DNA of 43,663 bases, from the NCBI GenBank assembly GCA_030038755.1, contig JASHSK010000003.1:1-43663 (forward strand). Direction: 5' to 3'. How positions within the stretch are numbered: position 1 is the stretch's first letter; each line of letters opens with the position of its first letter. A program made the position numbers and the translations under genes. The notes under the pieces were generated by a model. The model did no database searches. It was given only the letters and a program-made list of their open reading frames with translations, and was not told the origin of the DNA. Source of the DNA: Gammaproteobacteria bacterium (lineage in GTDB: Bacteria; Pseudomonadota; Gammaproteobacteria; Steroidobacterales; Steroidobacteraceae). Positions 35,411 to 39,389 of this stretch are shown here, piece by piece.

Positions 35411-35427
35411 ATGCTCGCTGCGAGCAT
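35411..35427. promoter_or_regulatory. 17-bp palindrome upstream of the redox genes
   Basis: ATGCTCGC-T-GCGAGCAT is a perfect 8-bp inverted repeat with one central base. It overlaps a possible -10 TATGCT (35410-35415) ahead of the cytochrome gene, which is where a repressor operator would sit. No regulator gene is adjacent. Confidence 0.4.
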
Positions 35428-35560
35428 CGCTTGCGCCCGGGAAGCAACCATCCGCGAGTCAGGAAGAGTGTTCAGACGGGTTTTATGGGAATCTCGCAGG
35501 CAATCCGCGCGTGGCTCACCCGACCGGGCGAGGCGGGTCTTCGGGGGCGGTCAGCCGCTG

Positions 35561-35989
35561 GTGCGCGCGCTCACGCTGGGCCCGATGATAGGGCTGTGCT
35601 GCCAGCTGTGGGTTCCCGGAGCGCTCTCGCAGGCGGCTACGCCGGCGAGCGGTGCGGCGGTGCCGCGGATTCTGCCGCGACCGACCAACCTGCAGGTGCT
35701 GCCGAAGGACATTTCGCCGGTGCAGCTGCGGCAGGTGATGACCGGGTTTCGCGATGGGCTGGGGGTTACCTGCGGCTACTGCCATGCCGAGGACCCGCGG
35801 ACCCAGAGGCTCGATTTCGCATCGGACCAAAAGCCGGCCAAGCAGACCACCAGGCTCATGATCCGCATGCTCAACGACATCAACGACCGGTATCTGCGCG
35901 GGCTCGGAGATCCGCGCTACTCGACGCCGGTCACGTGCGGTACCTGCCACCAGGGCGAATCGACTCCGCCGCCGTTCGAGCCGAGGTAA
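35561..35989 (+). CDS. Exported c-type cytochrome with two CXXCH motifs
   Basis: A small exported cytochrome resembling the photosynthetic-reaction-centre cytochrome c-like family found in many non-photosynthetic bacteria. The mature part reads NLQVLPKDISPVQLRQVMTGFRDGLGVTCGYCHAED (CGYCH at 71-75), then RLDFASDQKPAKQTTRLMIRMLNDINDRYL and VTCGTCHQGE (CGTCH at 126-130). Starts are uncertain: GTG 35561 gives a compact signal peptide (MRALTLGPMIGLCCQLWVPGALSQA) and is chosen; GTG 35468 and the track start 35411 would add 31 and 50 residues. It heads a run of exported redox proteins, 14 bases before the next gene. Confidence 0.75.
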   Translation: MRALTLGPMIGLCCQLWVPGALSQAATPASGAAVPRILPRPTNLQVLPKDISPVQLRQVMTGFRDGLGVTCGYCHAEDPRTQRLDFASDQKPAKQTTRLMIRMLNDINDRYLRGLGDPRYSTPVTCGTCHQGESTPPPFEPR

Positions 35990-36003
35990 CGTCACGCGCT
36001 CCG

Positions 36004-36516
36004 GTGCGGCGTGCCCGCTGCAGCCTGCTGTTGCTCGCTGCCGCCGGGCCGGCGCTCGGTCAGGCTCTGCTGCTGGGTGCCGGCAACGCGCCGGCAGAAG
36101 TCGTGGCCTGGAAGACCGACCTGCAGCCGCTCCGCGGTGCCCCCGAGGTCGGGCGCTTCACGTTGAGCGTGACGGGCACGCTGCGCGACGGCTGGCACAT
36201 CTACTCGCTGAAGCAGCTGCCGCTGGGGCCGATACCGCTACGCGTCGTGATCGATGCGAATCCGCTCGCCACGGCCGACGGAGCGGTCGTCGAATCGACG
36301 CCGACCACGATTTACGATGCGCGCTTCGGTCTCGACACGCATTTCTATTCACATTCGTTCGAGCTGCGGGTGCCCGTGCGCCTGGCATCACATGTGCCCG
36401 GCACGCAGCGGCTCATTCCGGTCAGCGTGCGCTTCCAGGCCTGCAGCGGCGAGATCTGCGAGCCGCCGAGGACGGTACATCTATCCGTCCCGGTCCAACC
36501 GGCAGCCAGGGGATGA
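36004..36516 (+). CDS. Exported DsbD-alpha-domain-like protein
   Basis: A 170-residue exported protein. GTG 36004 gives a signal peptide MRRARCSLLLLAAAGPALGQA. The mature part is a beta-rich domain like the N-terminal domain of DsbD: LSVTGTLRDGWHIYSLKQLPLGPIPLRVVI, then IPVSVRFQACSGEICEPPRTVHLSVPV. The pair in ACSGEIC matches the redox cysteines of that domain, with one residue less between them than I recall for DsbD. The membrane and thioredoxin domains of DsbD are absent, so it is a free-standing electron acceptor or chaperone domain. Its stop overlaps the next start as ATGA. Confidence 0.7.
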   Translation: MRRARCSLLLLAAAGPALGQALLLGAGNAPAEVVAWKTDLQPLRGAPEVGRFTLSVTGTLRDGWHIYSLKQLPLGPIPLRVVIDANPLATADGAVVESTPTTIYDARFGLDTHFYSHSFELRVPVRLASHVPGTQRLIPVSVRFQACSGEICEPPRTVHLSVPVQPAARG

Positions 36517-37937
36517 CGATGCCGCGGCGGTGGATGGCGCTGGCAGCGAGTCTCGGACTCGCCGGGGCTGCCGCGCTGCCGCTGCGTGCGCAGATAGCGG
36601 TGCAGAACCAGGGCTACCTGCCTTACAGCGACGCCCCGATCAATTACCGCTCGGAGAAGCTGAGTGATCCGGTGGCTCTGCTGCAGGAGCGTCTCGATCG
36701 GGGACAGGTGAGTCTCAGCTACGACGCGGACCATGGCTATCTGCGCTCGGTGCTGAAGCTGCTGAACATACCGGTGGACTCGCAGACCCTGGTGTTCTCC
36801 AAGACCAGCTTTCAATACCCCAGGATCTCGCCCGAGCATCCGCGCGCCCTCTACTACAACGACGACGTATACGTCGGCTCGGTGCACACCGGCAAGGCGA
36901 TCGAGGTGGTGTCCTTCGATCCGATGCAAGGCGCCATCTTCTATCTGCTCGACGAGCACCGGGTGGAAAAGCCGGTCTTCCAGCGCGCCGAGCTGGATTG
37001 CACCCAGTGTCATATCGCCGGCGGGACCCGCGGCATCCCCGGCGTCCTGCTGCGTTCGGTCTACCCCTCGACCGACGGGAATCTGCTGCCCGGCGCCCCC
37101 TCGTTCATCACCGATCAGCAAAGCCCCTGGGCGCAGCGCTGGGGCGGATGGTACGTCTCCGGCTCGCTGGCAGCGGCTTCGATGGGCAATGCCGCGGTCG
37201 CCGATGCGCCCGGGGCAGGATCGCTGGCGCAGGCGGATAGCGCGCCGGCGAAGCTTCAGGCGCTGGGCCAGCGCTTCGACGGCGCCGCGTACCTTGCACC
37301 CGGCAGCGATCAGGTTGCATTGATGGTGCTCGCGCACCAGACACAGATGCACAACCTGATCACTCTGACCAATTACAGGACGCGGCTCGCGCTCTACGCG
37401 CTGGCGCAGCGTTCGGACACGGGCCGACCGACCGGCGCCGTGCCGCCCCTCGATGCGCTGCCGCCGGCGACGCAGCGCCAGATCGAGCGCCCCGCCGAGC
37501 AGCTGCTGCGTTACCTGCTGTTCAGCAATGAGACGCCACTCGGCGGTCTTGATGCGCGAGCGATCATTGCCGCCTCGCCGTTCGCGCGCGAATTTGCAGA
37601 GCGTGGTCCGCGTGACTCCCAGGGGCGCTCACTGCGCGACTTCGATCTGAGCAAGCGCCTGTTCCGCTACCCCTGCAGCTACCTCATCTATTCGTCGGAC
37701 TTCGACGCCCTGCCGGAGCCCGCCAAGGGATACGTCTATCACCGCCTGCTGCAGGTGCTGAGCGGCCAGGACCCAAGCACGGATTTTTCGGGGCTGTCCA
37801 CGGCGGATCGTCAGGCAATTCTGTCGATCCTGCTGCAGACCAAGGCCGGCCTCCCGCAGGAATGGCTCGACTATGCGCGCGCGCACCGCCTGAGCGTGAC
37901 GGCATCGCCGCCATCGCTGGCGCGGCGCGGCCCCTGA
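36513..37937 (+). CDS. Exported protein with one CXXCH haem motif, function unknown
   Basis: I do not recognise a named family. The 474-residue protein has a signal peptide (MTMPRRWMALAASLGLAGAAALPLRAQ) and one haem-binding type motif, CTQCH (163-167). Notable segments are SLSYDADHGYLRSVLKLLNIPVDSQTLVFSKTSFQYPRISPEHPRALYYNDDVYVG and VALMVLAHQTQMHNLITLTNYRTRLAL, which look conserved, and RYPCSYLIYSSDFDALPEPAKGYVYHRLLQVL. The layout suggests a periplasmic monohaem protein working with the neighbouring cytochrome. ATG 36513 overlaps the previous stop; ATG 36519 is an alternative. Confidence 0.72.
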   Translation: MTMPRRWMALAASLGLAGAAALPLRAQIAVQNQGYLPYSDAPINYRSEKLSDPVALLQERLDRGQVSLSYDADHGYLRSVLKLLNIPVDSQTLVFSKTSFQYPRISPEHPRALYYNDDVYVGSVHTGKAIEVVSFDPMQGAIFYLLDEHRVEKPVFQRAELDCTQCHIAGGTRGIPGVLLRSVYPSTDGNLLPGAPSFITDQQSPWAQRWGGWYVSGSLAAASMGNAAVADAPGAGSLAQADSAPAKLQALGQRFDGAAYLAPGSDQVALMVLAHQTQMHNLITLTNYRTRLALYALAQRSDTGRPTGAVPPLDALPPATQRQIERPAEQLLRYLLFSNETPLGGLDARAIIAASPFAREFAERGPRDSQGRSLRDFDLSKRLFRYPCSYLIYSSDFDALPEPAKGYVYHRLLQVLSGQDPSTDFSGLSTADRQAILSILLQTKAGLPQEWLDYARAHRLSVTASPPSLARRGP

Positions 37938-37956
37938 CCGTTACGTCATGAGCACC

Positions 37957-37969
37957 CGGTTACGAACCG
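37957..37969. promoter_or_regulatory. Short inverted repeat before the TlpA-like gene
   Basis: CGGTT-ACG-AACCG is a perfect 5-bp inverted repeat about 13 bases before the ATG at 37983. It could be a weak operator or an RNA hairpin; evidence is limited to symmetry and position. Confidence 0.25.
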
Positions 37970-37982
37970 TCACACGAGGACA

Positions 37983-39389
37983 ATGGAAATGAAGACTCCT
38001 TGGAGGGCCGCGCTGGCCGCGGCCATCGTTTTGGGCAGCAGCGCGGCCCTGGCGGGAGGAACATCCCCCGGGGACGCCGCTGTGGACGGACGCTGGGACG
38101 CCGCGCTGACGCGCAACGGTGCCCGGATCCCCTTCCGGCTCGACATCGTGGGATCCGGCCCGACGCTGAAGGGCATCCTGTACGACGGCTTCGAGCCTTA
38201 TGACGGCACGACCAGCGCGTCCTTTCAGGATGGCAAGCTGGTGCTCAACATCGAGCATTATCTCACTACGATTGCCGCTACTTTGCAGGACGGCAGGCTC
38301 ACGGGCAGCGTGGTCACGCAGAACCGCGGCAGCAGCGGCGAGTACGGCTTCGAAGCCACGCGGCATGTCGACTCCCTCTCCGCCGCGGTGAGCGCCCCAT
38401 CGATCGAGGGTTCCTGGGTCATTCCGCTCGACACCCCGTCCTCCAAGGGCGAGAAGGCGTTTCGCTTCATCGTCCGTCAGCACGGCGCGGAGGTCGCGGC
38501 GGCCATTCTGCGCGTCGACGGCGACACCGGGTCGTACAGCGGCAGCTACCGCGACGGCAAGTGGGTCCTCAGCCATTTCGATGGCTCGCGTCCCGGCGTC
38601 ATCGTCGTGACTCCCAAGCCCGACGGGACTCTCGAGATCCAACAGCACGTGGACCGGCCGGGTACGCAGACCGCCCAGACTGGAGCGGGTGGGGCCGGCG
38701 CGCAGGCCGGCGGCGACCAGACCTACTCCGAGGACGTGACGCCCGACGGCCGCTATGCCCCGGTGCTGACCGCCTATCGAGCCGACGTGGCGCTGGCGAA
38801 GGGACTACCGCAGCCGGATAACTACCTGACGCATACCACGGCACGCGATCCGAACGAGATCTTCAAATTCAACTTCCCGGATGCGGATGGCAAGCTGGTC
38901 TCCAACGAAGATCCGCGCTTCAAGGGCAAGGTGGTGCTGGCCATCGTCACCGGTACGTGGTGCCCCAACTGCCACGACGAAGCCCAGTACCTGGTGCAGC
39001 TCGACCGCAAATACCGCAGCCGCGGCCTCGCGATCGTCGCGCTGGACTTCGAAGAGCCCGAGCAGCAGGGGAGCCTCGAGCGCGAGCGGGCCTTCGTCAG
39101 GCAGTACGGAGTCAAATATACCTACCTGATCGCCGGAGCACCGTCCGAGATGTGGGAAAAGGTGCCGCAGTTGCAAAACCTCAACACTTGGCCGGCTACG
39201 ATCTTCATCGGCCGTGACGGCAAGGTGAAGGCCGTGCACGCCGGCTTTGCGTCTCCCGCCAGCGGCGAGTTCTATACCCAGCTCAAACAGGAGTTCACCA
39301 GCCGCATCGAGCAGCTGCTGGCCGAAAAGGCGCCGGCGGAACACGTCGCTACCGCCGCGCCCGCGGCCCACCTCCAGCCCGGGGTCTGA
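37983..39389 (+). CDS. Exported TlpA/ResA-like thioredoxin with long N-terminal domain
   Basis: A 468-residue exported protein. Residues 1-25 are a signal peptide (AALAAAIVLGSSAALAGG). Residues 30-230 form a beta-rich domain in two similar halves (RWDAALTRNGARIPFRLDI and SWVIPLDTPSSKGEKAFRFIVRQHG). Residues 280-450 are a TlpA-like thioredoxin: FNFPDADGKLVSNEDPRFKGKVVLAIVTGTWCPNCHDEAQYLVQL, with active-site WCPNC at 326-330 and cis-proline region NTWPATIFIGRDGKV. The active site followed by His also reads CXXCH, but context favours thioredoxin. Such proteins reduce apocytochrome c or other periplasmic disulfides, which fits the neighbouring CXXCH proteins. Confidence 0.85.
   Translation: MEMKTPWRAALAAAIVLGSSAALAGGTSPGDAAVDGRWDAALTRNGARIPFRLDIVGSGPTLKGILYDGFEPYDGTTSASFQDGKLVLNIEHYLTTIAATLQDGRLTGSVVTQNRGSSGEYGFEATRHVDSLSAAVSAPSIEGSWVIPLDTPSSKGEKAFRFIVRQHGAEVAAAILRVDGDTGSYSGSYRDGKWVLSHFDGSRPGVIVVTPKPDGTLEIQQHVDRPGTQTAQTGAGGAGAQAGGDQTYSEDVTPDGRYAPVLTAYRADVALAKGLPQPDNYLTHTTARDPNEIFKFNFPDADGKLVSNEDPRFKGKVVLAIVTGTWCPNCHDEAQYLVQLDRKYRSRGLAIVALDFEEPEQQGSLERERAFVRQYGVKYTYLIAGAPSEMWEKVPQLQNLNTWPATIFIGRDGKVKAVHAGFASPASGEFYTQLKQEFTSRIEQLLAEKAPAEHVATAAPAAHLQPGV

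Follow-up and report, generated by a model that had tools for sequence, protein, structure and literature searches.

A predicted cytochrome family paired with an unusual thioredoxin in several phyla of soil bacteria

Introduction

Four consecutive genes for predicted exported redox proteins, one of which resembles no described family, raise the question of whether the four act together and, if so, on what. The genes (g1 to g4) lie in a 43,663-nt stretch of DNA that we call the window, meaning the whole stretch under study and not the cassette alone. The initial annotation proposed that they form a periplasmic relay that matures the third protein, g3. No paper on the g1–g4 cassette was found in the literature searches that we tried. 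We examined the proteins, their relatives and their genomic neighborhoods.

Results

The four genes lie in line on one strand, as initially annotated (Table 1). The ATG of g3 overlaps the stop codon of g2, and the two reading frames overlap. Each protein begins with a signal-peptide-like hydrophobic stretch, beyond which we found no second hydrophobic segment or lipobox in any of them. The start of g1 needed revision. The original choice, the ATG at 35411, probably lies ahead of the true start, and a GTG at 35561, just ahead of the signal peptide, is more likely. A PADLOC search for a defence system gave no match, and neither did a search for plasmid carriage.

Table 1. Positions and predicted properties of the cassette genes in the window
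Feature	Position	Strand	Description
g1	35561..35989	+	Small di-haem c-type cytochrome, two CXXCH motifs, 'c_type_nonphoto' family, predicted export
g2	36004..36516 (start approximate)	+	Stand-alone DsbD N-terminal (alpha)-like domain with a CxxxxC pair, lacking a transmembrane part
g3	36513..37937	+	474 residues, predicted exported mono-CXXCH protein, undescribed family
g3 haem-binding motif CTQCH (predicted)	36999..37013	+	Residues 163-167
g4	37983..39389	+	Two N-terminal beta domains and a ResA/TlpA-like thioredoxin domain, WCPNCHDE

Profile searches place g1 and g2 in known families, in agreement with the initial view of a two-CXXCH cytochrome followed by a free DsbD-alpha-like domain. g1 scored 108 bits against the NCBIfam profile NF033196 (c_type_nonphoto; cut-off 70) and matched Pfam CytoC_RC at E=1.8e-9. 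Both of its CXXCH motifs are invariant among six aligned sequences, and only its genomic context is unusual for this family. g2 scored 42.1 bits against PF11412 (DsbD_N; curated cut-off 25). Across 20 aligned sequences, its Cys152 and Cys157 (numbered from 35989) never vary, nor do Q150 and P160. At ~170 aa and with a single N-terminal hydrophobic stretch, g2 lacks the transmembrane and C-terminal thioredoxin domains of a full DsbD. A profile comparison with the PDB returned nDsbD at E=0.68, which is only suggestive.

g3 had been described as a monohaem-type protein of no recognized family, and this description stands. It carries one CXXCH and has no Pfam, NCBIfam or PDB-sequence match. A predicted model (mean pLDDT 77, pTM 0.80) matched no PDB fold at E<=0.001, and at that pLDDT the comparison is only a moderate test of the fold. 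Residues C163, C166, H167 and H275 are invariant in the alignment of all 67 homologues. The conserved CXXCH, together with the signal-like N-terminus of g3, is as expected for a c-type cytochrome. No methionine is invariant among the 67, so H275 is the natural candidate for the distal ligand. A third cysteine, C388, is absent from five members that are paired with g4. The CXXCH is therefore the sole constant thiol pair of g3, and because it holds the only invariant cysteines, any action of g4 on g3 must take place there. On the same grounds we rejected the idea that g4 acts on a disulfide at some other place in g3. As judged from these motifs, g3 represents an undescribed family of predicted cytochromes.

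The initial annotation of g4 as a TlpA-like thioredoxin with an extra domain was borne out, with the extra part resolving in the predicted model into two beta domains (residues ~35-223). The thioredoxin domain (residues ~290-425) is TlpA/ResA-like. In the model it matches ResA and DsbE structures in the PDB, and its closest matches, ResA and CcmG/DsbE, share with it CxxCxxE and a cis-Pro loop. g4 thus has the thioredoxin fold with CxxC and cis-Pro that characterizes ResA/CcmG proteins. The motif WCPNCHDE is unchanged in all 43 aligned sequences, and its glutamate aligns with that of the ResA CxxCxxE. Scores against the NCBIfam ResA subfamily (52.6 bits; cut-off 170) and the TlpA equivalog (39.6 bits; cut-off 230) fall below membership. 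By these measures g4 is a variant of the ResA/TlpA reductases that fails their cut-offs.

The active site of g4, CPNCH (38961-38975, residues 327-331), is itself a CXXCH haem-type motif. Every g3-linked copy and most relatives retain its histidine, and distant relatives have CPNCN or CPNCA. These variants are compatible with a thiol site, and we ranked a haem-carrying thioredoxin low. Two loci carry two g4 copies each, in tandem in L008 (9446-12213) and apart in L005 (1445-2827 and 9433-10833).

The best Pfam match of g4 is the Redoxin/AhpC-TSA profile. Cytochrome and thioredoxin genes occur as neighbors in envelope stress sets. Both points would fit a general periplasmic set for oxidative stress and thiol repair, in which g4 and g2 repair oxidized proteins, g3 and g1 pass on surplus electrons, and the pairing reflects co-regulation only. 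We consider this explanation unlikely. The identified flanking genes include no recurrent peroxidase, catalase or Msr gene, and the clade-wide pairing of single origin and the parallel divergence described below exceed what a loose stress set would lead one to expect.

We searched for relatives of g3 in 84,980 genomes and found it in 44 loci from Alpha- and Gammaproteobacteria, Acidobacteriota and Planctomycetes. Gene calls at these loci were mechanical and made in this analysis. Of the 43 loci that could be judged, 40 have g4 next to g3, in one case upstream and separated from it by g2. The pattern-based retrieval favors close relatives of the window g3, so we also sought g3 in whole genomes. 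It was present in 10/147 genomes of the window's order (at ~40% identity, the window itself excepted), in 1/399 genomes of its phylum (the window itself) and in 12/199 Acidobacteriota genomes.

A tree of all sets together, including the window (67 rows), confined the g4 pairing to one g3 clade of 41 (SH-aLRT 97). This clade contains the window, Alpha- and Gammaproteobacteria, Acidobacteriota and one Planctomycete. g4 adjoins g3 in 40 of the 41 rows, and the remaining row is a contig end. Among the 26 rows outside the clade, none has a same-strand g4 within 2.5 kb of g3. The sister row to the clade (L130) has its g4 on the other strand at a distance of ~2 kb, which perhaps preserves an earlier state of the pairing. 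Because all paired rows fall in one clade, the pairing looks like the product of a single origin, with no loss observed. The g3–g4 adjacency is far beyond chance. Distances among g3 and g4 proteins correlate at r=0.89, a value reached in 0/2000 permutations; this indicates joint inheritance rather than physical contact, since shared ancestry alone yields such a correlation. In the Acidobacteriota sample, g3 and g4 co-occur in six genomes against 1.3 expected (hypergeometric P = 0.0006, relatedness not corrected). Several g3-bearing Acidobacteriota genomes (among them G624, G730, G734 and G738) gave no g4 match, and g4-like proteins occur also in genomes without g3.

The Planctomycete Aquisphaera insulae (genome G149) has three g3 copies (L121, L130 and L032), of which one is paired with g4, one has a divergent g4 ~2 kb away and one has none.

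The window g3 is 59–70% identical to homologues from Alphaproteobacteria and Granulicella and ~40% identical to those of its own order. In a careful tree it groups with Alphaproteobacteria (100/99), within a larger group that also contains Granulicella and Bryocella (97/91). This position, far from the window's own order, indicates horizontal transfer. Acidobacteriota are the most diverse holders. On the sequence comparisons, g3 and g4 are a real transferable two-gene module to which g2 and g1 are optional additions.

The initial annotation would be refuted if the genes were not found together elsewhere, and it withstood that test to different degrees. Co-occurrence was strong for g3 with g4, moderate for g2 and weak for g1. 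A same-strand g2 was found no more than 5 kb away in 19 loci and the window (about half of the clade). It precedes g3 in the Alphaproteobacteria, and in several Acidobacteriota it comes after g4. g1 is found in six loci and the window. The frequent absence of g1 and of g2 from relatives is what one would expect if four unrelated exported redox genes had become neighbors by accident. Such an accident is highly improbable. It is contradicted for g3 and g4 by their adjacency throughout the clade, across three phyla, and g1, where present, always stands directly before g2. In sphingomonads and some Acidobacteriota, g4 is followed by other small cytochromes, with a class I cytochrome c in L006, L007, L013, L015 and L019; L006 has a cytochrome c' as well. 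These neighborhoods suggest that the electron partner may be a small cytochrome c whose type differs between lineages.

In 12 loci a gene for a TonB-dependent or Oar-type receptor precedes g3 on the same strand, no more than four genes away, and in several of them it is the immediate neighbor. This arrangement points to another explanation, in which a substrate crosses the outer membrane by such a receptor and g3 is the haem enzyme that acts on it. g4 would serve the same pathway without acting on g3: its beta domains would bind the substrate or a surface partner, its thioredoxin domain would reduce a third protein or an oxidized product, and g1 or another cytochrome c would take the electrons. 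The g3 family exists without g4, and the two large conserved beta domains of g4 would be superfluous for a plain CcmG role. In L107 (2998-8538), a g4 relative, in whose thioredoxin domain no WCxxC was found, stands beside an Oar-type receptor without g3. Against this explanation, such receptors are numerous in Acidobacteriota, none is annotated beside the window cassette (in a partial survey) or in about half of the loci, and we found neither a substrate nor an enzymatic fold for g3. We regard it as a serious possibility that falls short of an even chance.

In three loci (L037:11245-14662, L046:11240-14787 and L020:5771-7092), g3-g4-g2 occurs in runs that also include an uncharacterized protein (cluster 3), DUF6152 and as many as four DUF6644 membrane proteins in tandem. 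The order-level relatives of g3 that lack g4 (L109, L110 and L114) are also near cluster 3 or DUF6152. The window's own genome has 20 DUF6152 matches, 19 of them above the cut-off (e.g., G000:C44:7053-8593, L122-L124). At other loci the signal peptide of DUF6152 seems to end right before 'HHSFAAEFD', so the mature protein may begin with His, as in copper histidine-brace proteins. A literature search found no paper on DUF6152.

Discussion

We favor a model in which a thiol branch serves a haem branch, with g3 and g4 as the core module, g2 and g1 as accessories, and g4 reducing the CXXCH of g3 (and g1). We assign this model a probability of about 0.38. The two-gene core would have arisen once and then spread between phyla. 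g3 would be a periplasmic c-type haem oxidoreductase whose haem sits at the CXXCH, probably with H275 supplying the second ligand. Its partner in electron exchange would be a small cytochrome c, namely g1 in the window and different cytochromes elsewhere. g4 would act as a thiol reductase of the ResA/CcmG type. Its electrons would come from g2, and those of g2 from the DsbD of the genome. The likeliest thiol target of g4 is the CXXCH of g3 (and g1), either ahead of haem attachment or once more when oxidation has damaged the site.

The initial annotation noted that no DsbD transmembrane carrier is present, which is true of the cassette and not of the genome. One DsbD is encoded elsewhere, split across two contigs that have 197 identical end bases in common. 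nDsbD is the direct electron donor to CcmG (PMC3884852), a pairing to which g2 and g4 correspond. The cassette would thus need no membrane carrier of its own for a relay from DsbD through g2 and g4 to a CXXCH, and we consider such a relay plausible. The idea that such a relay matures g3 fared less evenly. The thiol chemistry is sensible by the nDsbD–CcmG precedent (PMC3884852), whereas all 26 homologues outside the clade keep the same CXXCH without a same-strand g4 beside g3, some of them in genomes that gave no g4 relative, so g4 is not generally needed for haem attachment in the g3 family. The genome also already has Ccm, including two Cytochrom_C_asm (CcmC/CcmF-type) genes, and about half of the clade has no g2 nearby. 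We counted both points against maturation.

We compared the cassette to known systems. Like the thioreduction branch of System I (nDsbD to CcmG to CcmH/apocytochrome, PMC3884852), it combines CXXCH proteins with a domain similar to nDsbD and a thioredoxin of the CcmG/ResA type. It differs in that g2 stands alone without the membrane and C-terminal domains of DsbD, g4 carries two additional beta domains, CcmH, CcmF and CcmE are missing from the cassette, and the set is tied to one particular cytochrome clade. ResA of Bacillus System II (PDB 4nmu, 1st9) has the thioredoxin fold, CxxCxxE active site and cis-Pro loop in common with g4. Unlike ResA, g4 scores below the NCBIfam cut-off, has a CPNC motif and a ~250-residue N-terminal extension, and lacks ResB/ResC/CcdA neighbors. 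TlpA and ScoI of Bradyrhizobium (PDB 1jfu, 4txv) share the periplasmic thioredoxin reductase fold, but g4 is below the TlpA cut-off and no CuA oxidase subunit or Sco is among the cassette genes.

A bolder proposal is that g3 founds a new class of periplasmic mono-haem enzymes, with a new fold and a His-ligated c-haem, and forms a dedicated unit with a substrate-binding g4 that couples haem to thiol chemistry on a compound imported via outer-membrane receptors. We think this improbable.

The analysis defines an unclassified family of predicted exported cytochromes with an invariant haem site and a near-obligate pairing with an unusual thioredoxin, which has moved between phyla of soil bacteria. 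Cultured carriers in Granulicella, Novosphingobium, Sphingomonas and Terriglobus make the cassette testable. If confirmed, the cassette would provide either an example of thiol-redox partners reserved for one cytochrome and separate from the general Ccm/System II machinery or a new kind of periplasmic haem enzyme.
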